This document shows, piece after piece, positions 19,374 through 45,675 of a stretch of DNA of 64,000 nt. The DNA comes from Pseudovirgaria hyperparasitica (taxonomy: Eukaryota; Ascomycota; Dothideomycetes; Acrospermales; Acrospermaceae). The notes beneath the pieces are model-generated. The model made no database searches, was not told the origin of the DNA, and worked only from the letters and a program-made list of their open reading frames with translations. The first letter of the stretch is position 1, and the number at the start of each line of letters is the position of its first letter. The stretch lies in the NCBI RefSeq assembly GCF_010093815.1, contig NW_022985555.1, forward strand, positions 124,001 through 188,000, written 5' to 3'. The translations under genes and the position numbers were made by a program.

Positions 19374-20039
19374 CCCCAGCAGGAAGCCTTTGCCCACCTA
19401 ATACCGCCGCCCACTCCCAGCTTTGCCTCTCTCTTCAGAAGAGCTTCCATGCTCACCCCTTCACACAAGCCTACCACCACACACAAATACCTCTATCCCG
19501 CCCCATGGTTTGATGGATGAATCCCCACTCGCCTTTTCGCTCTTGCTGTCTTCATCTGCTGCCCACTTCCATCGCTTTCCGACTCTCCACTCTACACAAG
19601 TCTTTTCCTCGACCTTATAACAATAACAACATCCGCAACACCGTCACACCGTCACACATCCTCTTAGCCTTTCACCCTCTACCTCTCCAACCGCCGCCTC
19701 CACAGACGCTCCGTACTTTGGATGGCGGATCTGCTGCGCATCGATCCCAGACCTCCTCCCAGATTTCGTGGTTACACGGGCTCTGATATTCACGTCATCA
19801 GGCATTCTTCCTCGACCGCTCTCGACTCGGAATATCACTCAACCAGCTCACTGCAAAGAGCATAGCACGAGTACTTCCGACTAACAACCCCGTTGACACA
19901 CGCTACACCTGTATTTATCCGTCCGTGTCTGCTCGCCAAGCCTGTGTGGACGTTGTGTCGCCGAGGACCGCTACACCGCTTTCGCTGATCACATTCGCGA
20001 CGCATCCATTCTTACAGGCCAAGACACCAAGACATAGCT

Positions 20040-22154
20040 ATGTCGACTGCACAATTTGAACTGCGCTCCGCCCCTAGCCCGGCACATCTCGCTGATGTGC
20101 CCGGCCTGGCTCATCCCACAAATCATACCTCCTCCGGCCCGCCTGCATACAATCGCAACAAGCCTGTACCTATACCTGAAGAAGAGGAGAACAACGATAC
20201 AAGTAGTGAACCCCTTGAGCCTCTCACTCCTACAGAGTTCCAGTTTGGACATACTTTCAAACCTCAGAGCTCACATCATAACGGTGCAGTACACTCCTCC
20301 GCGAATGCCGTTCCATCACCGAAAGCCTTCTACGACTCAGAGCCTCGTCCACGGCCTACTCCGAGATCAACAAATCTGTCCGAAATGTCGCAGACCTCGG
20401 TCGAATCTGCACCCGTCGCGAAGAATGGCATTGGCAAAGTGTTTGGCTCTGTTCGCAACAAGCTGATCCGCTCGAGATCGAGCAAGGCCGACCTCAGCCA
20501 ACTGCCAACAGTCAATACCAACATACCCCGAACAACGGTTACTCCTGCCAGCGCTGTCATTCCACGTAGACTGGGTGCCTGGCCCGCGAAAGAGTCACCG
20601 CGCACATCAGCCACTAATTCTCCACCTTCTCCTAGCTCACCCGCCAACAATCATGACCATGATCCGATGGGCGATATCCGGAACCAACTAGACTCTCAGA
20701 AGCAAGTCAACAACAAGCCGAGTTCCGATCAGAAATACAAGTCCTCAAACTCTCTTACCCGCCTCCAGTCTGCAACAGACACACGTCCGAATAAGAGTAA
20801 GACTTTCGCGTTTGGGAAGAATAAGAGACCAGAAAGACAACGTTCAGCTAGCACAGAGAGCATTCCAAAGCAGAGCCATGACTCCGATGAGCCTCCCGTT
20901 CCTCTTTTTGGTACTTTTTCGAAACACGCTGCTGAGGGTACTGGAATGAAGGCACGACGCTTGAGTACAAGCTTGCCGGATGAGTTTAACGTGGACTACT
21001 GCGAGCTGGACACTGAGTTCAAGAGAGCGAGCCTACTCCCAGGAAAGCGTGGAAAGCGACTTGGTGTTGGCGCTACTGCAGAAGTCCGGATTATGCAAAA
21101 GAAGGGATACTCGGAGGATCTCGTTGCAGTGAAAGAATACAGACTTCGAGATAGAACCGAGAACGAGGACGAATATTTGAAGAAGATCAAGTCCGAGTTC
21201 AGTATCGCCAAGGCGTTGAATCATCCAAACATCGTCACCACGGTACGCCTTTGTACCCACGGTAAACCAGCTCGTTGGAATCACGTTATGGAATTCTGTA
21301 ACCATGGCGAGTTATATGCCTTGGTTGAGCGTGGCTTGTTCAAGACGCATTATTCGCAAGGAGACCGCCTATGTTTCTTCAAGCAGATTTGCAGAGCTGT
21401 CGACTATCTCCATAGTCATGGCATTGCCCATCGCGATATCAAATTGGAGAACATACTGATGGACAAGAATGGAGGGTTGAAACTCTCCGATTTTGGAGTG
21501 TCGGAAGTTTTCTGCGGTGAGCATCCGGGTCTACGTGCTTCTGGTGGACAGTGTGGAAAGAACATGGGGGAAGTACGGTTGTGTCACCCAGGCCTCTGCG
21601 GTAGCCTCCCCTATGTCTCTCCAGAGGTCTTGAGGAAAGATGTCGAATATGACCCTCGACTCCTGGATGTTTGGTCTACTGCTATTGTCTTTGTCACCAT
21701 GACCTTTGGAGGGTCTCCGTGGCAATCTGCGACAGAAGTAGATCAATATTACGTGCGCTTCGAAGCTGGATGGGAGGCATGGCTCAAAGAACACCCTGAT
21801 GGCATCATCAGAAATGTCTTGGACTCATCTCCTCTGGTTGGTCCGCTTTTCAGGCGAATCGAACCGCCTACTATGCGCAAGACGATCCTCCAGATGCTAC
21901 ATCCAGATCCCTCGAAACGTATCACAATGAAGGAGGTAGTTTCATCGGGCTTTTTCCTGGGACTCGATTGCTGCACACCGGAGAGCTACGAAAATCCCAA
22001 CTGGGGTATGAACGCGGCGGAACGGGGCGCCAGTCGAATGGCACAGCTTGCCACAAGGCAGATTGTAAAGAAGCATCATCACATTCCTCCGAAAGAGGTT
22101 GGTAAATTTTCTAAAGGCATTACACATAGGTTCGACATGGGTGATGGAACTTGA
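20040..22154 (+). CDS. HAL4: Ser/Thr protein kinase, Hal4/Sat4 type
   Basis: This is a single-exon kinase of 704 residues from the fungal Npr1/Hal family. Hal4/Sat4 and Hal5 stabilise potassium and nutrient transporters at the plasma membrane and confer salt tolerance. The first 320 residues are Ser/Thr/Pro-rich and disordered, with basic patches (KVFGSVRNKLIRSRSSK). The kinase domain runs from about residue 338 to 640: glycine loop GVGATAEV, catalytic lysine in LVAVKEY, HRDIKLEN near 463 and DFGVSEVF near 484. The activation-segment insert with HPGLCGSLPYVSPEV and the DVWSTAIV and FGGSPWQSA motifs are typical of the Hal4/Npr1 group. All catalytic residues are present. Which member of the group it is (Hal4, Hal5, Ptk) cannot be settled without a tree. 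Confidence 0.9.
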   Translation: MSTAQFELRSAPSPAHLADVPGLAHPTNHTSSGPPAYNRNKPVPIPEEEENNDTSSEPLEPLTPTEFQFGHTFKPQSSHHNGAVHSSANAVPSPKAFYDSEPRPRPTPRSTNLSEMSQTSVESAPVAKNGIGKVFGSVRNKLIRSRSSKADLSQLPTVNTNIPRTTVTPASAVIPRRLGAWPAKESPRTSATNSPPSPSSPANNHDHDPMGDIRNQLDSQKQVNNKPSSDQKYKSSNSLTRLQSATDTRPNKSKTFAFGKNKRPERQRSASTESIPKQSHDSDEPPVPLFGTFSKHAAEGTGMKARRLSTSLPDEFNVDYCELDTEFKRASLLPGKRGKRLGVGATAEVRIMQKKGYSEDLVAVKEYRLRDRTENEDEYLKKIKSEFSIAKALNHPNIVTTVRLCTHGKPARWNHVMEFCNHGELYALVERGLFKTHYSQGDRLCFFKQICRAVDYLHSHGIAHRDIKLENILMDKNGGLKLSDFGVSEVFCGEHPGLRASGGQCGKNMGEVRLCHPGLCGSLPYVSPEVLRKDVEYDPRLLDVWSTAIVFVTMTFGGSPWQSATEVDQYYVRFEAGWEAWLKEHPDGIIRNVLDSSPLVGPLFRRIEPPTMRKTILQMLHPDPSKRITMKEVVSSGFFLGLDCCTPESYENPNWGMNAAERGASRMAQLATRQIVKKHHHIPPKEVGKFSKGITHRFDMGDGT

Positions 22155-25100
22155 TGGGGATTTTGAAGTCTATACCTCGGCGTTTCACGGCTCGGTTGCT
22201 CTACAATACACATTTCCTTCGCACGATCTTACGTTTTCAGCAACATGACCTGTTCGGGTGGAGTTCGAGTACACTAGATTGTATTGGTTTCCCTTTCTTC
22301 CGGGGCGGACTTATTATGTTTGGGGAAAAGGCGCATAAAGGGAAACCTGGGTCGGCGGCTTTTGTGCTACCAAAATTTTGTTCAAACGGGTGATGGTTAG
22401 ATGTCCTCGCAGGAAGATACTCTTGTAACACTGTAACGGTCGATATAATATAATACCCATCACATGTTGCTTCCATATCCACTGGCTCCTGCTTCTGCCC
22501 AGATCCACCCCTTTGATTGGACGTGCCATTATTGATGACTATGACGATCTAGGCTACACGCTTCTTGCCAATCGGGTCCGGCACTTCAGACACATTCACC
22601 TGCATATATACATCACAACTTTAATTACACCAAGGTACATGGTAGCTCAGGCCAGATAAATCAGGCTTTCTTCACGCTTTGGTCATAAATCACGCTACGG
22701 CTTCATTGGGTACGGAGCACCGCGTACAGCGCACACCAGCCCAACAAGGAGAGTCTTGTAGGCGATCCATCCGACGTCCACTGAGTGGGAGACCATGCCG
22801 CCGGCGCGTACCGGTGCTGGGTCAATCGGAGACATCGTAGATGAGATTGGAAGACAATATTATCTTCACAGTCAGAGATTCCAAACATCATAATGTTAGC
22901 TACGTCTTGATGAGACTCGACACGGGCTTTCACCATTCCGCTTATTTAGGCATTATCTGCAGCCAAGCCTTCCGCCAACAGACGCCGAACGTTCTTGGAG
23001 TTCTTGGAACGTCCAGTAATCAATTAGGCTGAGATAATTAGCCTGCGAGTGCTCTTTCAATTCCTTGGAAGGCGTGCACGGCGGGTGATGGTTGGTGGCG
23101 ACACCATCCAGCTTTCCCCTTGTAAAATATCTCTCAAGTCCCTCCATCAACCTCTCAAAACATAGGATGTACGATTCAACGATCTCTGTATCCCGAACCA
23201 CGGCAACTGCAATTCGGCTTGCGCGGATGACGCGGCACTAGATCAGTAGATGACCTAATCTTATCAAGATAAGGATCACGCAGGGCTATTACAGCATCAG
23301 AACGGTCAGCGTGCCGTTCAGCATGCCGAACCCTTTGTACGTTTTGCGATTCACGACGCAGTCACGCAGGGCAGAATCGACATTTCTAAGCCAATCCGTA
23401 GTGCTCTACTAGCTGACAAGCTACAAAGCGGACCTGCCTGATGACACCATAGCTGGACCGCCGTGCAAGCTTGCACGTGCGACGACAAATGTGTGGTCTT
23501 ATGACTCCTGGTCAACATCAAACGTCATTCGTCATTCGTCTCACAGCTCTGATACCTGGAGAGAACTTTGTATTGCATTTGATTTGGCGAGGAGCTTCGA
23601 AAGGATGAATCTGCGGCAGAGTCTTGTTCTTGTCTTACCTGCATTATTGCCGCGCGTCTGGGCATACTTGCATGTAGGCTCTTGTGGGCATCGACTCCCA
23701 ATTAATCACCGCCGTGCATTCGAAGGCATGATGATGCCTCTTGCTGACGTTATTCTTCTCACCAGGCCAGGTAGCAATAGCCGACACCTTCTTTCGAGAA
23801 TGAACGACATGCAGAACACAACTTGACCTACTCGATGGCAATGCTACATGTGCAAAAAATGTCAGATTTTGCGGAAGTTCACACATCCGTCTCATTAGGC
23901 GGAAAAAACAAATGGCTAACAGATGCCCTAATAATATATATCATCTCTGCCAAGACAGCGCCAAGTGACTCTCCGCCTACATACTCGATCGGGCACGTTC
24001 GAAAATTCCCGCTGGACACCGCCGAGGCTCGCAGATTTTCGGTCTTCTTGTCAACTGCAGAAAGTCTCATGAAAAGAGAGTCTAGCAGCCAAGACTTGGG
24101 CTTCTGAGATAGCCAAGAAATAATACATTGTCTTTGCAGGGACAAGCAGGGATGCGGATAAGAAAAAGCGGCCCGAGATCGTGATGATCTTCCCAGTCAG
24201 TCTGTTTCACATGTGGCAATCTGATGCGGATCTGACTTCTTCGTTTTAGCTAGGTCTGGGAAATACCGTATACGCCCGAGGTTTGTGGTAGGGACGACTT
24301 AGCAGCTTCCGGGCCCCTCATATCTTCGTGGAAGCTATTACCGCTTCTAAACGGACAATATCTGCATCGTGAATTGAATGATCAGTGCTTCGTGTGTAGC
24401 ATCTGAAACTGGCTAACTGATATGACGATGATCGAGCCACATAACGGCATCTAGAAGGCCAAGTACGTCCCATTTGGACACGACCGTGTACTCTACCAGA
24501 CTCTGAACCTTCTTCCAGTAAATAACTCACCGTCGTGTGGTGAGGAACAGCATGGCCATTCATAGCCGAAACGAAGCTGGGGGGGGGCACGAACTATACA
24601 ACGATGACAGACCGTAGACTAAGAGAACCTCAACCCTCTATAGGTATATAAGCCGCAATGGTAAGCTCGAAACGTATACTCCGGACCAGTCTATGCACGA
24701 ATCCGGCGTTCCCTCAAATCACACAGAAACTCTTTCGGGCCGCAATTAGAATCCTTCGTCCTAAAACCACCCAAAAATAGTCTACCAGCCTAATCACAAT
24801 CAGAATGATCCATCTACAAGAAGGAAGCAGCTCAACCAAAAAAACGAATAGAGAGCAAGCTAGCTATAAGTAGTACCTCAAATTGCCTCGCGTTGAAACA
24901 ACACCTACATCCATCGCTTTTTCTGCGGTATTTTTTTTTTCTCAAGCGCCCACAACTTGACGCTTTTGCCAAAGACCACAACATTGCTTTAGCTTCCCAA
25001 ACTCCCCGAAAATCCTGAAGGATCAATGTCTGACCTAGGAAAAACCCCTCCCACAGATAGTTCTGGGTATCGTGCACTTCTATGCGGCTTTGAGAAAAAG

Positions 25101-25718
25101 ATCCCAATGTTTTCTTTTTAATTCGCGCAATGAAATCCTACATGTAGAAGAGGTCTTCATCCTTCCTTCCTTCGTTCGTTCAGGAATTTCTGTCACATCA
25201 TTATCATGCTGAACTGCTTTCAGGAGCATAGTCGATGCCAGATCCAGGTTGCTATGATGTGATTGATGTCCAGAACTATTTGAGAGCCTGCGAAATCAAA
25301 CATACTTCTCGTGCGCATGGATCGCAAAAGTTGGCTACTGCCTAACAATGAGTCCTGATTCATTTCATACTGTAAATGCAGCTGAAGCCCGGACATAAGA
25401 ATAGGTACTTATTATAGTATATTAAATGTGAAACCCTTAGTAGAAGACTTCTTATAGATAGATGTATGATATATATACTAAGTCGAGTTCTCTAAATAAC
25501 ACTCTAATTGTCTACTATTTAGAGATAGTATAGCTAAGGATAGATTTATATAGAATAAGAGGATCGAAGAATTATTCGTGTATAACAATACTAGTATGAT
25601 CATCTATTAACCACGTTATAGAAATTTCCATAGAGTGTGAAAGAGTAAAGAGAATACCATTAAGAGTGAAACGGAAAAGTAGAGTTGGGAAGACGCAAGA
25701 ACAAAATGCAAAATGTAA
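22155..25718. other. Gene-poor region upstream of tRNA-Gly
   Basis: These 3.6 kb hold no gene that I can support. A plus-strand frame from about 23605 encodes a 73-residue peptide with a signal-like start (MNLRQSLVLVLPALLPRVWA), without other support. From about 25400 the sequence turns strongly AT-rich. Confidence 0.5.
25400..25640. repeat. AT-rich low-complexity block
   Basis: About 240 bases next to the tRNA are dominated by TATAG, ATAGATAG and similar TA-rich words, very unlike the coding DNA around them. Such composition is typical of RIP-mutated or decayed repeat DNA in ascomycetes, but I cannot identify the source element. Confidence 0.5.
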
Positions 25719-25800
25719 TGCATGATCCGGGAGTCGAACCCGAGCCATTTGCTTGCGCCACAAGTGGAAGGCAAATATCCTACCGTTGGACCAATCATGC
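25719..25800 (-). tRNA. tRNA-Gly (anticodon UCC) with 11-nt intron
   Basis: Read on the minus strand, the 82-nt sequence folds as a tRNA. A 7-bp acceptor stem GCATGAT/ATCATGC is followed by discriminator A, and the D arm carries GGT...GGTAGGA. The anticodon stem is TTTGC/GCAAA, and the T arm holds TTCGACT. The stem encloses 18 bases instead of 7, so an 11-nt intron is placed at the canonical site after position 37. Loop bases CT-TCC-A then give anticodon UCC, glycine. Mature length would be 71 nt plus CCA, normal for tRNA-Gly. Internal A and B boxes are present. Confidence 0.9.
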
Positions 25801-26234
25801 AATGATTTGATGTAAGCCGAGGACTCATGATCATTATATAATGATTACCATTGATTTAGGAAAAGCGTGTGAGGGTGTAATCAGCATTCCGCCCAGCATT
25901 CTACTAGAAGCTGGTGAAGTCTTATAGATAGTAATTCAAGTACTGCTCCTCTAGGCATGTTTGACTAAGAAACGTAATCCATATCATGGATAACTTGTTC
26001 ATGGCCTTGGAAAAAGCCCAAGCATAGGAAATGTGGATCGAATCATAGGGCCTTAAAGTAAGGTAAGTATCTAGCAAGATCTTCTCTTCGAAGTATCTGA
26101 AACAATCAGCACAAGATTGACATGCTCTCTAGCTGTCTTCCTCTAGTGACACGGACCTCTATAGATGATGTATAGAGAAGAGAAATGGGTTACAGATAGG
26201 AAGTCCATCAATCAATGCGACGTAAAGTATATTG
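25801..26234. other. Interval between tRNA and inverted-repeat element
   Basis: These 430 bases are AT-leaning with no open frame of note. They may contain decayed repeat DNA continuous with the AT-rich block beyond the tRNA; nothing specific can be assigned. Confidence 0.4.
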
Positions 26235-26276
26235 ACGTCCATCCCTAGGTTATGGGACGCACCCCGTTATGGGACA
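26235..26276 (+). repeat. Left terminal inverted repeat
   Basis: This 42-bp sequence starts ACGTCCATCCCTAGGT and ends GGGACA. It matches the reverse complement of 31222-31263 at 36 of 42 positions; mismatches include several C/T exchanges. Confidence 0.85.
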
Positions 26277-27110
26277 GACTGCAGGTACTTTGAGATTGAG
26301 CGACTCTAACCCTCTGAGCGCATTAGATTAATCTACATCCTTCTATTAATAGTTTCTTTACCTACTATAGACTGCACGTACCCTTAGAGATACAAAAATT
26401 ACAACGTTGTTGACGCCTGCCTACCTGATGCAGTAGAGCCTTCTCTTATGCCGGGATTGAGGCCTACGCTGTACAGCGCTGCATTAGCCTCGAAAACCTC
26501 TTAAATTGACAGACTGGCTTTAACTAGACCTTAGAATGTTACTTTAGGAGCGAGAAGTCACTATTAGCCTTGTGGCCATCGTCGCGCGCTTGTTTATGCG
26601 TGGTTGCCACCCTGGTCAGTACTTAAGACGGAGGCAGCTCGGAGCGCTCTCGACCCCGCACTTGAATAGGATTAGCGTGTAATCTATCCCGGGGTTCGAA
26701 AGCACGTGTTTGTGGCTGTGCGGAATCATGGCTATGCTGACAAATCTTTGCCGGTGCCCACAGTCATGTGACCGATCGACAAGCGTATGTTTAGCTGAAA
26801 ATTGCTTAGAGTGGGTTGATAAAAGAATGCAGCAACTTGATGCTATATAGTGTAAGAATGAAGGGAGCTGGGCCGTATTCTAAAACGCTTAGCTATCATT
26901 GTCATGATCCCAGTTCAAGTCGGCAAGTCATCCCGTGACGGCACATATGTGGCGATTGAGAGAGGTATGGAAACGATAAGCAGCGAGCTAGACCGTGATA
27001 GCCCTGGTACATGCATAGGTGAGCTGCGGGGCAAGCAAGTCTAAGTTACTTAAGCTGAGCTCCTGCTGTCCAACCAAGGCTTTTCTGCCACGCTTCTACG
27101 CCTTTTCACC

Positions 27111-27479
27111 ATGTGTCGGTATACTACAGCCGATATCAACTATTCCCAGTGTCGATTACCAGCTCAACATAAGATCGTGAAACGTCTTCACAAGAGATGT
27201 GAAGCTTCTCCGAAGCCAGGACCAAGATGTGAGAGCTCCACGTATGATCCGGCTCTTGGCACAAACCTACCTTCAAACCGAAACGCTCCATGCAGGTTTT
27301 GTCGAGATTCAGGCATAGTCGTACAGGTGCAATATGAAGATGTCAGTTATATTATATGCATCGTCTACATGAAACCATCTGACTGTACAAATAGCATGAC
27401 CTTCATGGTTGAGGAACCAGCCTGGAAGGAGAGTGTCGATGGGATACAATGGATACCATGTCATGCATTGTACTTATAA
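27111..27479 (+). CDS. Small Cys-containing fungal ORF, function unknown
   Basis: This 122-residue frame begins MCRYTTADINYSQC. It resembles a widespread fungal class of short proteins that start MCxxTTxxYxC and carry further Cys pairs; here C14, C31 (RCE), C40 and the CRFCRD motif near residue 61 follow that spacing. No enzymatic motif, signal peptide or membrane segment is visible. It is transcribed towards the kinase gene, and the two stop codons are only about 30 bases apart. The function of the class is unknown to me. Calling it a gene rests on the N-terminal motif and an intact frame; confidence is moderate. Confidence 0.5.
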   Translation: MCRYTTADINYSQCRLPAQHKIVKRLHKRCEASPKPGPRCESSTYDPALGTNLPSNRNAPCRFCRDSGIVVQVQYEDVSYIICIVYMKPSDCTNSMTFMVEEPAWKESVDGIQWIPCHALYL

Positions 27480-27509
27480 ATATCTCCTAGCCAGCATATC
27501 TCTAAGCAC

Positions 27510-28316
27510 TCAACAAATCCTCAATGACCTTAAAGCATTAAAGAAAACCGCTTTCACCCTCCCGTAGCCAGAGTTTACTTTCCTAGTAGCCAGCAAGCTA
27601 GCTCGGAGTTCTTGAAGAACTTCATCCATAGTATCGAAAGTACCATTCCAACAATCCTGCATCAATTTACCCAACAGTATATTTTCGACTTCTGGAAATT
27701 GATTCTCAGCATATAGCTTTTTGACACGGATCATTCGATCCTCAAAAGGAAAAAGCTCGTCGTATGGTTGTCTGCCCGTTATAACTTCGTATATCGCGCA
27801 GCCAAATGCGAAGATATCGGTCTTCCGGCTAATTCTCGGGGTAGATTCCTTATAACTAAACCACTCATAGCAGGCTCCTGCATCTTCCCCATCAATGCTA
27901 CTGCCTTCGAAGTCTATAATCTTTAGGCGGTCCTGAACTATAATCCAATTATTACATCCAATGTCAGCATGAAGAATGCCATTGTTGTGCATGTATCGCG
28001 TTCCCTCTGCAGCATCGTGTAGCCAGCGAACTTTTGTATGTAACGGGATCAGGTTCGCTCCGCTTCCTTGAATCACTGTCCGAACGGTTCTACCACGTTC
28101 AAGAATAAGGCCGTCGTGCGTTGCACCTAAGTATCTTACAATATTTCCATGTAGTCCCAGACGTTCGAGTGCTCGACGCTCAATGTCGATTCCCTCTCCG
28201 TGGAACTCCTTCAATATTCTTTCCTCATCGATCGCGTATATGACTCCTGATCCACCGGCTGCAAGGAATTTAAGACTTCCATAGTCTATAGCCTGGTCTT
28301 GCATGTGCTCCTCCAT
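27510..28316 (-). CDS. Small protein kinase-like protein carried within the element
   Basis: This intact, intronless frame encodes 268 residues that are almost entirely a protein-kinase domain. The glycine loop is AAGGSGVIYAI (about 19-29), the candidate ATP lysine is K36 (ILKEF), and E46 or E51 could serve as the helix-C glutamate. The catalytic loop is HADIGCNNW (116-124), so the usual Arg of HRD is Ala while Asp118 and Asn122/123 remain. The DFG motif reads DFE (135-137). Lobe-C landmarks KTDIFAFGCAIYEVITGRQPY and DCW are conserved. The variant DFE and missing HRD arginine suggest a non-RD kinase or weak activity, though similar variants occur in fungal expanded kinase families. Its place between the inverted repeats, next to the transposase and in the same orientation, suggests transposon cargo. 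Confidence 0.85.
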   Translation of the reverse strand: MEEHMQDQAIDYGSLKFLAAGGSGVIYAIDEERILKEFHGEGIDIERRALERLGLHGNIVRYLGATHDGLILERGRTVRTVIQGSGANLIPLHTKVRWLHDAAEGTRYMHNNGILHADIGCNNWIIVQDRLKIIDFEGSSIDGEDAGACYEWFSYKESTPRISRKTDIFAFGCAIYEVITGRQPYDELFPFEDRMIRVKKLYAENQFPEVENILLGKLMQDCWNGTFDTMDEVLQELRASLLATRKVNSGYGRVKAVFFNALRSLRIC

Positions 28317-28888
28317 GTTCCGAAGGTCGTGATCTCATGCTTCTCGGGCATGAGATAGGAAGCGCGTAGGTTCTATCGTGCGAGGTGCGTTAGGCAAGGA
28401 TTGTGATCGAGGGAGCCGGCTCGTCAACGCTTCGGGGTTTGCGAACTTAGAGCTGTATCGCGTGAAGGGGTAGGATCGCTTCGGACAGTGGGATGCAGGC
28501 GAAACGATAGGAGAGCCGCTTTCGTCTTTCGAGCAATACAATAGGCAGGAGTAATCGTTTTGCGGGTTAAGTGGCCTCGTCTTTGTCGCTGTACGTTGTC
28601 GACATGGATTGCGATGGTTGTTGATCGAGTTATATACTGGTGCGCGACGTGTCGGCAGCGCACTTTTGGAGGCTGACTTAGCCCAAGTTGTCGCGCCATG
28701 GCGTATCGCATTATCTCGGGATTTCTTCGGTGATTTGGGCAGTTTTTGATTGAATATCTGTAGTAGGGATAGCGCCAAACACCTGTTACCAACGAAGCTG
28801 TAAGCAATGGCACCGACACATCTTGAAGTAATTGGTCATCAGTCTAAACAGCATGTTCAGTTCTAAACGCTTAGCAAGACGCATCCTC
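28317..28888 (-). other. Spacer between transposase and kinase, with overlapping frames
   Basis: This 570-base spacer has two overlapping minus-strand open frames of 131 and 147 codons (28424-28819 and 28335-28778), both rich in Arg, Pro, Thr and Ser. Neither has a recognisable motif. The openness of two frames at once points to base composition, not to coding. It would contain the kinase promoter. Confidence 0.45.
28332..28356. promoter_or_regulatory. Perfect 9-bp hairpin upstream of kinase ORF
   Basis: ATCTCATGC and its exact inverse GCATGAGAT flank a 7-base loop, 16 bases upstream of the kinase start codon. In the transcript it would fold in the 5' leader. A role as operator or translational control element is possible but unproven; chance is also possible. 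Confidence 0.4.
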
Positions 28889-30672
28889 CTAATACATTTT
28901 TGCAACCGGCGCCATCCATAGCACTCCTGCGGCTTCTGCTGCCTGAACATCGCTCACTCTTGCGACTTTTCGCTTTGGCACAGATTGTTTAGCCCCAACA
29001 TCGAGTGAGTTCGCCTCGCCTTCCAGCGCAGTACTCTTGCGCTTCCTACCACGGTTTATCGTACTTGCAGACGTCGTGGCTTCTGCCGCGTCCTGTGTAG
29101 CCTTTTTAGACTTCCGAGAAAGTCTTGCCTTAACCTTAGCCTCATTAGCAGCGTCCTCTTCGGCACGCTTTAACCGTTTTTCTTGGAGATGCTCATAAGT
29201 AAACACCGTCCCAGACCCCTGTTCTAGTATAATTGCCTTAGTCGATCTGCGGGGTTTAGCTTCGTTATTGATCGTCGTCAAAAGTTGAATGCGGTTTTGC
29301 TGAAGAGCATTCTTCGTCAAGGATAATCGGGCAGCTTTGGCGAATTTTAACAGGTGTCGTTCTAGACTCTGCTTGCTTGTTTCGTCAAGAGTATGAGCAT
29401 CCCTCTTCAGAATCAGATCTTGCAGCGACGTGAGGCCCTCTGCTGACACTGGTGTCACAGGCGTTTGCAGTACTGCATCTTGCTGACAAGGTGCTTCGTT
29501 GATTATCGATACAGTCAGTTCAGTCGCTGGTCTCGGCACAGTCCTAAGTACTCGCTCTGGGTTGAATGGAAACAAACCACTTGCAGTATAACCAGCCTTG
29601 ATGTTCTTCGGCGTGAACGCTCGCTCCCTCGCAGGCTTGTATAAAGAGGTAAAATGCTCCTTGCCAGTAGTATTGACACCTCCTCGCTCAATCGTTCCAC
29701 CTGGTCGCGGTACGCCGCCTTTAACGGGGCGAATACAGCAACGTCGCAAGGCTGAAGCTTGTGGGATGTATGGGAGGGGAGACGACATAAGATGATGTTA
29801 TTTGCGAAACAATACTCTAAGATCTCAAGAGTCTCATGCGTCCCAAAGCCGTCAAGAATTAATACGCGGGGTCTCCCGTTAGCACGTTCTTTAGTCTCAG
29901 GATCAAATACTCGCTTAAACCACTGCAAGCTAATGTTGGAGTCGGTATATCCAGATTCATTGCACGCATATTGCCACCCGGGAGTAGGAAAGACTGTCCA
30001 GTTGCTTCGATGGGTGGTAGCCGGCCAAATAATCATAGGGTTCAGATACCTACCGTCAGCGCTAATACACTCGACAGCCGTAACCATTGTTCGCTTCACG
30101 CGCGCGCCTCTATAAGTCCGTGTATCATCCTTACCTACGAGGACTTTTACAGAGCCTAGCATCGATAGCATGACCCCAGTCTCGTCCATGTTATAGAAAT
30201 TCTCTGCTAGGATGGCGGGATCACCTAAAACCCTACCTATCACCTCGAACCAGTGTATCATCTTTCCACCGATATTCCTGTCGTGGCGGTTCCAGTCTAG
30301 CGCCGTGACGCGTCTGGCTGCCGTTTCTGGGTTGCGCTTCTCAAAAGCCTTTGCCCAGTTCTTACTCGGAGGCTTGAGGGGCCTGTCTGCCGGGGGTCGC
30401 GCGCGGGTGGCTACGAAGGCGAGGGAGGGAATGTACTTGATTCGTACAGGCTGTCCGAGATCTGACATCTGTAAGATGAACTTCACGAGGGCACTCTCTT
30501 CCCACGGTGTTAGGTACTGCTGGCTTTGGGCCTTGTCCTGCATCGAGGGTCCATTATGCGCGCGACGATGGAGGGTACTTCGAGCGACTCCGCTGTGGTC
30601 TGCTAGAGCACGGTACGATCTAGGCACACCGGGAGGAACTCCTCGTGCTAATGCTCGCCTTGCCTTATCCAT
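28889..30672 (-). pseudogene. Pogo/Fot1-type DDD transposase, frameshifted
   Basis: Transposase of the Tc1/mariner superfamily, pogo/Fot1 branch, which cuts and pastes DNA between inverted repeats. The first frame (30672-29515) has an N-terminal helix-turn-helix (YRALADHSGVARSTLHRR), a CENP-B-like second DNA-binding domain (TPWEESALVKFILQM, NWAKAFEKRNP) and the catalytic core. The core aspartates are D163 (NMDETG), D274 (LILDGFGTH) and D310 (LQPCDVAVF), giving DD35D spacing. At about 29680-29700 the frame shifts by one base; the C-terminal part continues in the frame 29788-28889 (GGVNTTGKEHF, GLFPFNPERVLR, then a Lys/Arg-rich tail). So this copy is probably inactive, unless the shift is a sequencing error. 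N-terminal sequence upstream of 30672 may be incomplete. Confidence 0.9.
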
Positions 30673-31221
30673 GATAAGTTAGTAACAGTCTATAGGGCGA
30701 ATGCTGTCCGCTCGCCTGAAGGCATCGTGAGGCATTGTAGCCACAAAGGACACATTCCAGACCCGAGAGACCCGTGGCATGCGCCACACTTATTTCTGGA
30801 CATTGGAGATAGGCATAGCGCGATAATTTAATACGGATCATGTAAGCAGCTTAATATGGCTAGTGTATTTTGTTGTAGCGGGGGACTATTCTGCGCATTC
30901 TTATCTCTTGAACGGACCTCCCGGCATCAACGCTCCTAGTGTCAAAGTAGCTTCCAGCACCGGGAAATATACCTTTAGTACTTTTACTTCCTTTCAAGAC
31001 CTCCGAATGACTAACAGAGTCACAAATTCGCAAATAGACAGGGGTGAACCAGCGAGGGATCAACTAATAGCCTTCAGAAAAAGATCAACAACATAAGCAC
31101 CGTTGCAGAAATCCTGTTCGGAGTCTAGCTTCTGAAGGAACAATAGCTACAGATTCGTATACGCTAACTACAACTCTATAAACTTATAATGGAGATGTTC
31201 CGGACCTCCGAATTGCAAAAG

Positions 31222-31263
31222 TGTCCCACCTCAGGGTGCGTCCCATGACCTAGGGATTGACGT
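31222..31263 (-). repeat. Right terminal inverted repeat
   Basis: Reverse-complement partner of the left repeat at 26235-26276, with 36 of 42 positions identical. Read outward-in on the minus strand it starts ACGTCAATCCCTAGGT and ends GGGACA. Just inside it are copies of a GACCTCCG word (31204, 30997, with a variant at 30914) that may be subterminal motifs. Confidence 0.85.
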
Positions 31264-31743
31264 TGGATCGTTGTTGCTTGAAACCGCGCACAGGCCATAA
31301 TGAGCGACGCGTTACCACAAATATTCCTTCGCGAGTATCTCAATTGACCAGTCCAAGGGTGTGAGCTTTACATGTTGAGCGATTCGAGCGATGGAAATTT
31401 ACAAACGGTATGCTGAACATGGCGGGCAAGCACGTCAAGCACCACAGGTTTCGTCAATGTTTCCGCGTTGTATGCGTTCATTGTTATCCTACACATTATG
31501 GTATTACCGCTATCGTGCCATTAAAACTCCAAGGCACCCACGGCCTTTCAATCAAACACCTCTGATGTAAAACCACTAGATCGTAAGTATGGTGATGTGC
31601 ATAGATCATGTATTGTGGTGAAATAGAAGTTGATCCGAGACATCAATCGCACAAACTAGACTCATGAATGGCGTATTCACGCGGTTTGAAGCTGCGTGAT
31701 TCAAACGCTCCGTTACATTCTCCATTAGCTCTGTGGCCCACCG
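31264..31743. other. Interval between element and NCE102
   Basis: These 480 bases are the 3' flank of the NCE102 gene and the DNA outside the right inverted repeat. No gene or RNA is visible. Confidence 0.5.
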
Positions 31744-39438: not shown

Positions 39439-40552
39439 CTAACGGCGTCCGCTTGGAACTATGGTGACCTTTCCATATTTATCTTGGACCGGGACAGTGC
39501 CCTGTGGACAAAAATAGGACCTTCCGGCAGGTCGAATCGTATCAACGCCTCCAGGGTACTTAGTTTCCATGTATACCCTATCCTTACTCTTCGGCTTCTT
39601 TTCTGCAATACGAATCTTTTCAAAGAGGCAGTACGAAGCGTAGTAAATGCAACTTGTATTCCCCGAATTAGGTCCCTTTTTGCTCCGGAAGTCGGTCAGT
39701 TGTTTTGATTGAATCTTGCGGGTCTCGGTGTGATACTGGGCCATCAGATCTCTGAGGAACTGTGCTTGCGTAATGCCTTCTGATCGGAGGTGCGCGCCGA
39801 TCTTGCGCCGTATTTCATCGCAGGTATCATAAACCGGCACTTTATCCTCCAACTCCCCAGGCAGTTGGACAGCTTTTGCATTCTGGGCCCTTTCTTCGGC
39901 CTTTGACGGGGCTGGTGCAGGTTCCCCTGCAGCTGTGACAACCTTTTGCTTCTTTCTCGGCATCGGAATGCCCCTGAGCTCTCTTAACCTGAAGAATTTC
40001 CATGCTGAGTGGTAGCATTCAGAGTTTGCACCCTTGTATGGTCCATTCTGTCCCATAAAGTTGCGATAGGACGGACCGCTGACGTTGATAGCTTTTTGAA
40101 ACTCCCCAACCTTCATTTCCCCAGAATCAAGGAAGTTATTGATCCTAGCACGGACTTGGTTGCAATTCAGTACCGGACCCATGGTGAAGTCCACATCGTC
40201 GGAATCCGCATCTACTGAAGCAAGGTCTGTAGATGCGGGGCGTTTCCGCTGTAGCCCATTGATATCCTGTATTGAGACTGCATATCCAGGGCGCCCCATG
40301 GCGCCTTGAGGTACCGCGTTTGAATTGGGGTCTGTTCGTGGTTCTGTGTTGAGAATTGTCCCGAGGTAAGATGGGCGGGTCCGTAAAGAGTCTGTCGGCT
40401 TCTTTGCTAATTCGCTAAGAGAGGAAAGAGGAGGTAATTGAACGTTTGAGTCACGTTGACCCAAGGCCTGGCGATTGATCTATGGATTCACGTCAGGTCA
40501 AGGATTCCGGGGGGGGCTTGCACGGAGAATTTACAGGCGGAAGTTTTGACAT
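39439..40552 (-). CDS. Nuclear-type protein with two tandem DUF7726-like domains
   Basis: The long second exon (40467-39439) has no ATG at its start. A short first exon 40552-40535 encoding MSKLPP fits in phase across a 67-nt intron (GTAAAT...CAG), giving about 348 residues. Two copies of a domain of about 70 residues are visible. Copy one spans VLNCNQVRARINNFLDSGEM to SAWKFFRLREL; copy two spans YDTCDEIRRKIGAHLRSEGI to SYCLFEKIRI. Each has the pattern C-x2-[VI]R-x-[KR]I, a helix, FQKAI/FLRDL, then a K/GP-x-S/N motif and an aromatic helix. This resembles DUF7726 of ascomycetes, which looks like a helix-turn-helix fold; DNA binding is inference. Between the copies sits a basic stretch, PRKKQKVV, a possible nuclear signal. 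Exon 1 is a prediction only. Confidence 0.72.
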
Positions 40553-43491: not shown

Positions 43492-44563
43492 TCTTGTTGT
43501 GAGCTGTATCCAACCTGTATAATATATAGCATCATCCAAATCCATGTACAAATTGTGACCAATGAATTAAACATCCGCTTGTCTAATCGGCATTCAACAA
43601 AACTGTTGTGGAAAAGGAGACCTCACTATTTTGCCAGTGCTGCTTGATCATCTCGTCTCCGCAGATCGGCCCTGGAAACAGCGATCCAACCTTGTAGTTG
43701 ACATGGTGATCACATGAGCGTACGGAGTACCGCTTCGCTTACGGGTATACGGGTTGCTCAGAAGACTAATGAGAGGGCGCGTGTGAGACAAACGAGGGTA
43801 GGTCAAGGCTGCATTCTGTCTTGAGTCCGTGTCTCAAGAGGCGGATGCAGGCATATCCGGTAAGACTAACCTAAAAACCTTCATCGTTTCATCAGGTCGA
43901 TACGTGTACGAATGAACCTTTTTTTTTTCTGGAAATGTATCGATCTAGATCCCAGTCCCAGTCCCACAAACCATACCATTTCCCCAGAATCCCCATACAC
44001 AGTATAGCAAAGCCACGAGCCGTGAGGGCTCCACGCAAATTCCCCATTCCCAGCTGAAATCGTCCCGCCCCCCGCGCTTACGGGTCCGTCCCGCTCGCTT
44101 AGCCACGTCGCTCCACCTACGTAACCCGCTCTCGGTGCCCTCTCGACCTTCCGCAAACGGAAACTCGTTGTGCACCATATCTCCAAGGAATTCAGGCGCC
44201 AAACACGGACCGAGTACTCGTTTTCGCTGACGCTCACCACCACGGCCCCGTCTCACCTTACCTTACCGTGCGTAAGACAGGGCAGTATGCTAACAGAGAA
44301 TGTGCTTACGGATGTGATGTAGTGACAAGTATGTCTCCTTGCGTAAATCTGCCGGTCCGGTGGCGGACAACGCGCCAGTCGGGGAGCCAGCGTAGCCAAG
44401 GAAGTCAGTTTGCGTGACGAAGGGAGCTGTTACAAAGTCTATATACCAGAGACGAGCCGGCTGTTTGAGGTGATTCCGTGTCGTTGTCGTTGTATCTTTG
44501 TGCTGTATAAGTCGTTGATGCCCTAATTGCCCCTGCCCCTTTGCTAGATGTCAAGGACTCACG
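43492..44563. other. Intergenic region upstream of lipase
   Basis: About 1.1 kb between mS35 and the lipase gene. Minus-strand frames at 43881-44256 overlap each other and lack family character. A T-rich run occurs at 43919-43930. No gene supported. Confidence 0.5.
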
Positions 44564-45675
44564 ATGCCTCTCACCACCACCATCATCACGTTCGTGATCT
44601 ACGCACTGGGCGTGTACGCTGTGCCATCGCCTAGAAGACTGGAATCTCGAGGTACGCGCAGCAGTATACTCCATCGCGAGAATAACAGCGTTGACGGGGG
44701 TCGACTTTGCTAACCATGGCTCGACCACATACACAGCCGTCGATGCAACCACATTCACCGCGCTCTCGCATATGGAACAGTTTGCCGCCGCCGCCTACTG
44801 CCCAGGCAATAACAACTCTCCCAATACCAAACTCAGCTGCGCACCCGCCGATACATGCCCACTCGTCGAAGCAGCGAATACAAACACACTCTTTGAATTC
44901 GAGAAGTCGGTTTACCTCCCCTACCCCCCTTATATATCACTCGCCTCGAAACGGATACTCCATGTACATCTCTTCCCTGTCCGCGCACATACTGACGGCA
45001 AGCAGCTCCCTCATCACAGACGTCACTGGCTACGTCGCCACCGACACCACCAATTCCCTCGTCGTCGTCTCCTTTCGCGGCAGCCAGTCAGTGCGCAACT
45101 GGATCTCCAACCTCAACTTCCTACTCGTCCCTACCGATCTCTGCGCTACGTGTTTCGCTCATGACGGCTTCTGGACCTCGTGGGCTGAGGCGCGGAGTGG
45201 CGTCCTCGCCGCCATAATGACCGCTGCGAACTCGCATCCTGGGTTCCAGCTCGTTGTCACCGGGCACAGTCTGGGCGGCGCGATTGCGACCCTGGCCGCT
45301 GCGGAGCTGCGGAAGAAGGGCTATACGGCGCAGTTGTACACGTACGGGGCGCCGCGGATTGGGAACAAGGGAATTAGTAATTTCATCACGACGCAAGGTG
45401 GCAACTTTAGAGTCACGCACAAGAACGATCCGGTGCCGAAGCTGCCGCCGAGGTTGGGATATGTGCATATTGCGCCGGAATATTATATAACGAGTGCGAA
45501 TAATGTTACGGTGACGCCAAGTGATATCCAGGTGTTCCAGACAGGAGATAGTAGCTCTGGGAATGCGGGCGATGGGGGTCTGGACACGGACGCCCATGGG
45601 TGGTATTTTAATAGAATTTCGGCGTGCTCTGATGGTGACTTTGAATTGAAGAAGAGGGACGAGGAAAAGCGTTGA
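44564..45675 (+). CDS. Secreted class-3 lipase (feruloyl-esterase A-like fold)
   Basis: Extracellular alpha/beta-hydrolase acting on triacylglycerols or related esters. Exons 44564-44651, 44689-44905 and 45006-45675 join in phases 1 and 2 to 324 residues. A signal peptide (MPLTTTIITFVIYALGVYA) is followed by a propeptide ending LESR, a likely Kex2-type site. The lipase-3 core has QFAAAAYC, FRGSQSVRNW, the nucleophile elbow GHSLGGA, YGAPRIGN, the Asp in NDPVPKLPP, and the His in DAHGWYF. All triad residues are present, with conserved cysteines for disulphides. The C-terminus is short and charged. Intron 1 would be 37 nt, unusually short, but the spliced sequence RLESRALTGVDFA fits the family; intron 2 is 100 nt. 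Confidence 0.9.

Follow-up and report, generated by a model that had tools for sequence, protein, structure and literature searches.

Elements of the pogo superfamily are 1.20 to 5.20 kb long and have one or two open reading frames (ORFs), which encode transposases; a DD35D catalytic triad is typical of almost all Fot transposases, and the canonical target is TA or TAA, TAA having been found for 341 of 385 Fot elements (PMC7386202). The Tc1-mariner elements of Sclerotinia are 1.4 to 2.3 kb long with a transposase, untranslated stretches of 32 to 202 nt, terminal inverted repeats (TIRs) of 36 to 70 bp and a TA target site duplication (TSD) (PMC4188875). Genes of other kinds have also been described inside fungal elements. 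The TIRs of a Tc1/Mariner element of Pyrenophora tritici-repentis enclose an ORF containing osmosensory transporter coiled-coil domains, and 31 of the 46 members of this family are almost identical, with both coding regions at full length (PMC3538342). hAT elements of Pyrenophora and Pseudocercospora captured histone H3 between their TIRs and were amplified (PMC3538342, PMC6710886), the Pseudocercospora element being approximately 9.5 kb long with a 20-bp TIR and an 8-bp TSD (PMC6710886). We describe here a 5029-bp segment of the Pseudovirgaria hyperparasitica genome, lying in a stretch of 64,000 nucleotides (contig NW_022985555.1, positions 124,001 to 188,000) that was analyzed as a whole and is referred to below as the window. 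With somewhat better than even confidence, we read the segment as a Fot-family (pogo superfamily) transposon which was inserted whole near a tRNA-Trp gene and which contains a passenger kinase captured earlier. We favor this reading because the ends are matched, start with ACGT, and enclose a transposase of the Fot type together with an intact kinase ORF, because no nearer end was found, and because the flanks are an equal TG.

The end-to-end length is within the range reported for the pogo superfamily, so that 5.03 kb is by itself not exceptional. The initial annotation had taken the pogo norm to be about 2 kb with a transposase only; the figure of about 2 kb holds as a norm, but the published range extends to 5.20 kb (PMC7386202). 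Its statement that fungal Tc1/mariner-class elements can carry genes is borne out by the Pyrenophora case (PMC3538342), and at the present locus, too, a nontransposase gene was found between matched TIRs, the feature that distinguishes a gene-carrying transposon. The Pyrenophora element is likewise fungal with a nontransposase ORF inside its TIRs, but its cargo is the coiled-coil ORF rather than a kinase (the word "kinase" has 0 occurrences in the main text of PMC3538342), and amplification is documented there, whereas one copy is known here. The H3-carrying hAT elements are similar in having a host gene within TIRs (the transduplication type) but belong to a different superfamily, with H3 as the cargo. 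The DD35D triad is shared with ordinary Fot elements, which differ in their TSD of TAA or TA, and the TIR length and ACGT ends are shared with the Mariner_SS families of Sclerotinia, which differ in their smaller size, with a transposase, and in their TA duplication. In Coccidioides, transposable elements showed a preference for the vicinity of genes annotated with protein kinase terms; this is an association by neighborhood, and kinases inside TIRs are not described in the parts of that paper drawn on here (PMC5872316). Gene carriage and size are within known bounds, and the kinase cargo is the part not found in print: no description of a pogo or Tc1/mariner element that encloses a kinase was found in the open-licence literature searched, from which most subscription papers are missing. 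Ant1 of Aspergillus niger is reportedly a Tc1/Fot1-class element of about 4.8 kb with an amdS-like sequence, similar in size and class to the unit described here and different in its cargo.

The two arms of 42 nt (Table 1) are identical at 36 positions, with agreement at 28 of the first 30. When 8-mer-seeded inverted pairs spaced at 10 kb or less were compared throughout the window, these arms were the best pair, the runner-up reaching 29/42. In ten simulated first-order Markov windows of the same length, the top pair reached 28 to 30 of 42, compared with the 36 observed, and the match is far above chance. The inward-facing 42-bp repeats that the initial annotation had reported with this identity were thus recovered as the sole pair above 29/42 in the window. 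Two TTATGGGAC motifs are present in the left arm, at positions 26250 and 26267. Both arms start with ACGT, which are the first four nucleotides in all but one of the Sclerotinia Tc1-mariner families and also the ends of the Verticillium DAHLIAE 1 and 2 families (PMC4188875). Since the arms also fall inside the Sclerotinia range of TIR lengths, the coordinates mark ends of a type already known from transposable elements.

Judging from the size and the short untranslated stretches of the Sclerotinia elements, a standard element should end soon after the transposase stop codon. No nearer or extra copy of either arm was found when the window or the interior was scanned with 42, 26, and 30 nt (best interior match, 17/30), and no partner of the right end was found other than the one 5 kb away, on the far side of the kinase. 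The dinucleotide TG is present on either flank; as the chance of two dinucleotides agreeing is 0.063, this equality argues weakly for a single insertion.

Table 1. Positions of the features of the 5029-bp segment in the window
Feature	Position	Strand	Remarks
Left-flank TG	26233..26234	.	Possible 2-bp target duplication; not canonical TA
Left terminal inverted repeat	26235..26276	+	Begins ACGT; 36/42 vs right end
Interval of 1.2 kb from left end to kinase; contains 122-aa Cys ORF	26277..27509	.	
Intact 268-aa protein kinase ORF, candidate cargo	27510..28316	-	Pfam Pkinase 7e-14; motifs; codon score
Transposase-kinase spacer; expected end zone of a normal element	28317..28888	.	Nothing end-like; best 17/30
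C-terminal transposase part (probable), other frame	28889..29788	-	Motifs ERGGVNTT, FPFNPERV
Fot-type pogo transposase, first part (N-terminal region and complete DD35D triad)	29515..30672	-	Pfam DDE_1 1.1e-32
Right terminal inverted repeat	31222..31263	-	Minus-strand reading begins ACGT; 36/42 vs left end
Right-flank TG	31264..31265	.	Partner of TG at 26233-26234

Starting at the right end and following the minus strand, one encounters the transposase, a spacer of 572 bp, and then the kinase ORF. The first transposase ORF matched DDE_1 with 113.4 bits against a cut-off of 22, and the catalytic aspartates were located at residues 163, 274, and 310, the second and third being separated by 35 residues as in DD35D. 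The DNA-binding domain was weakly recognized (HTH_Tnp_Tc5, E value of 0.021 and 15.2 bits, below the cut-off of 22.2), and HTH_psq was not among the five Pfam families listed for this ORF at E values up to 10. A second ORF overlaps the first in a different frame, and the transposase is split over the two. The second had no Pfam match at an E value of 0.001 or below; from its two motifs (Table 1) it is probably the continuation of the Fot transposase. The transposase claimed in the initial annotation was accordingly confirmed in its family and its triad but was found to occupy two frames rather than one intact ORF.

The kinase ORF matched Pkinase (PF00069) with 52.3 bits against a cut-off of 31.7 and contained no internal stops, as had been claimed for it. 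Its motifs GGSGV, ILKEF, IERRAL, HADIGCNN, DFEG, and DIFAFG presumably represent the Gly loop, Lys, Glu, HAD..N, DFEG, and DxFxFG, respectively. Twenty second-order Markov sequences, each of 64 kb, yielded no ATG-initiated ORF of at least 268 aa. The codon score of the kinase was coding-like (z = 3.7), at 0.11 in frame compared with 0.09 in one antisense frame, a near equality that makes this score a weak tool here. On a synonymous codon scale, the kinase (-0.031) and the first transposase ORF (-0.026) scored below nine host ORFs (-0.001 to 0.109), on which the scale itself had been trained. Assignment of the kinase to FunK1, which we equate with Pkinase_fungal (PF17667), was considered and rejected, the match reaching 16.1 bits (E value of 0.0049) against a cut-off of 24.1. 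A single-sequence AlphaFold model of the kinase had a mean predicted local distance difference test (pLDDT) score of 35.8 and was unusable. A second protein kinase gene is located about 4 kb to the left of the element (positions 19989 to 22151, plus strand; Pkinase, 165.4 bits). In a tblastn search within the window, the one kinase match was a weak one in this gene; the likeness is marginal (E value of 0.068), and the gene is therefore not an evident source of the enclosed kinase.

A number of observations, given in this and the next two paragraphs, count against the initial annotation, set the unit apart from standard Fot elements, or weigh against a single transposon with a passenger kinase. 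There are 6 mismatches among the 42 positions of the arms, and the flanks, TG and TG, are neither the TA nor the TAA expected as the target duplication of a Fot element. The enclosed kinase ORF also departs from the transposase-only gene content of Fot elements. The one Sclerotinia family to depart from the ACGT ends was labeled TcMar-Pogo by its authors (PMC4188875). TA is the specific insertion site of 61.6% of such elements in Paracoccidioides (PMC2836289), and non-TA sites therefore occur. Because of its TG flanks, we have not filed the unit as a standard Fot element and apply the term Fot-type to the transposase alone. Kinases of this sort are numerous in fungi, so that a chance neighborhood with a transposon would not be rare. 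The same facts can be explained by two insertions of one family, with a 2-kb element on the right that is without a left end, a left arm that is the remnant of a second copy, and a resident kinase between them. Such an origin would accommodate the noncanonical target, the six mismatches, a kinase from a group that is common in fungi, and the unlike TpA/ApT ratio and G+C content of transposase and kinase described below. However, it requires an inverted order of the two copies together with the loss of both inner ends, remnants of which were not found (no interior match was better than the 17/30 mentioned above), and the equal TG flanks would have to be a coincidence of the probability already given. 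We regard two insertions as possible but rather doubtful.

The composition of the two genes was also unlike: the TpA/ApT ratio of the transposase was 1.03, compared with 0.77 for the kinase, and the G+C content was 0.515 and 0.449, respectively. In Cochliobolus, a TpA/ApT ratio above 0.89 was taken to indicate repeat-induced point mutation (RIP), and Tc1-Mariner elements had ratios of 1.04 to 1.08 (PMC4112212). Judged by that threshold, RIP would have reached the transposase and spared the kinase. Had the kinase multiplied alongside the transposase, a shared RIP mark might be expected; if the RIP reading held, either the two genes would differ in their history as repeats or the kinase would be a late arrival. 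Since TpA/ApT also tracks codon content, we treat this contrast as mild counterevidence. Ratios above 0.96 were found in 4 of the 64 1-kb bins of the window (starting at 26001, 29001, 30001, and 44001), three of which overlap the element, and the two bins of the transposase had composite RIP indices of 0.01 and 0.06. Alternatively, a normal element may have been present first and the kinase segment may have been added later in place, by nested insertion or repair, so that the unit never moved with the kinase. The kinase does have a base composition of its own, and approximately 2.65 kb, the greater part of the extra length, is found on a single side of the transposase, the pattern that an added block would give, but no convincing second pair of ends was found around the kinase. 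The candidate, a 16-nt pair at 27105 to 27120 and 28812 to 28827, was no better than chance, given that 1.5 pairs of at least 14/16 were counted in 26277 to 28888 compared with 0 to 2.5 in ten Markov versions. Later addition in place is in our view unlikely.

A single frame change lies inside the overlap of the two transposase ORFs, downstream of the catalytic triad. The enzyme of the present copy is probably without its normal C terminus, and the copy is probably not autonomous. The transposase is otherwise open and hence is not an old relic. An intron may be present at the junction instead, as six Sclerotinia families carry one (PMC4188875). A frame change was preferred because the motif order of Fot transposases carries on across the junction. 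The initial annotation had also placed a Cys-motif gene inside the repeats. An ORF of 122 aa is indeed present at 27111 to 27479 on the plus strand and may resemble small Cys-rich families of Dothideomycetes. Its codon score equaled that of shuffled sequence (z = 0.3), and its length was that expected by chance, since 20 second-order Markov sequences contained 12.6 ATG-initiated ORFs of at least 122 aa per 64 kb, or 0.24 per 1.2 kb; it was rejected as a gene. An intact kinase ORF with its catalytic motifs beside a frame-changed transposase might also be taken to mean that the 5-kb element is real and that its kinase is maintained by selection as a regular component of the family, aiding transposition or the host. 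One intact ORF beside one frame change is, however, a weak sign of selection, and we consider a selected kinase very improbable. The kinase is most likely a passenger.

Taken as a transposon that acquired its kinase before it was inserted, the unit would have originated when, by transduplication, a host kinase gene was incorporated between the transposase and the left end of an ancestral element. A transposase binding both ends would then have moved the whole unit by cut-and-paste, and it would have landed in an interval of approximately 1.1 kb (measured with the element removed) between the tRNA-Trp gene and an ORF with a MARVEL domain. Because of the frame change in its transposase, the present copy could probably move only with a transposase supplied by another copy. 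The proposal of the initial annotation that a transposon carries its own kinase is partly supported by this anatomy.

The tRNA-Trp gene (positions 25718 to 25801, minus strand; anticodon cca, identified with ARAGORN) lies 433 bp to the left of the element, and the ORF with the MARVEL domain lies 631 bp from it. Some transposons favor tRNA neighborhoods, and one case says nothing in this respect. The 1-kb bin directly to the left of the element (25001 to 26000), which includes the tRNA-Trp gene, has the lowest G+C content of the 64 bins (0.387). The bin from 44001 to 45000, the one with a high TpA/ApT ratio outside the element, may hold another transposon remnant. Proteins encoded in the window include BEACH, SNF2 with HAND and SLIDE, ArsA-type Get3, amidase, pro-kumamolisin, and PALP proteins, a gene content that fits a filamentous ascomycete host. 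The nearest PDB entry listed for Get3 is 3ibg, which we take to be from Aspergillus fumigatus. The ORF at 39442 to 40479 (minus strand) has two stretches of DUF7726, a domain of unknown function.

Close copies of the element, the kinase, or the transposase were not found elsewhere in the window by blastn at E values up to 1. Relatives of the kinase and the first transposase ORF were sought in IMG/VR and in GTDB genomes, collections of viruses and prokaryotes in which single-sequence queries reach close relatives only, so that negative results there say little about fungi. In IMG/VR, one query gave 0 pattern matches and another gave seven, all unrelated, and in GTDB none of the fifteen and twenty-three pattern matches was a relative. 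The TIR pattern had no match in IMG/VR, and a general pogo motif pattern had none in the virus and prokaryote collections. The sole match to the kinase motif pattern, L001, was rejected as a chance match, having stops beside the motif and a tblastn E value of 0.59.

If the kinase is a passenger in one copy, the element adds one more example of transduplication in fungi. A wider role, in which an active kinase travels as the cargo of a Fot/pogo lineage, both inside one fungal genome and from one to another, and in which such a lineage contributes to the large, scattered kinase expansions of filamentous fungi, appears improbable to us. If it were true, a kinase inside a pogo element, here one that is not FunK1 by the Pfam cut-off, would be a direct and testable route for the spread of kinases.

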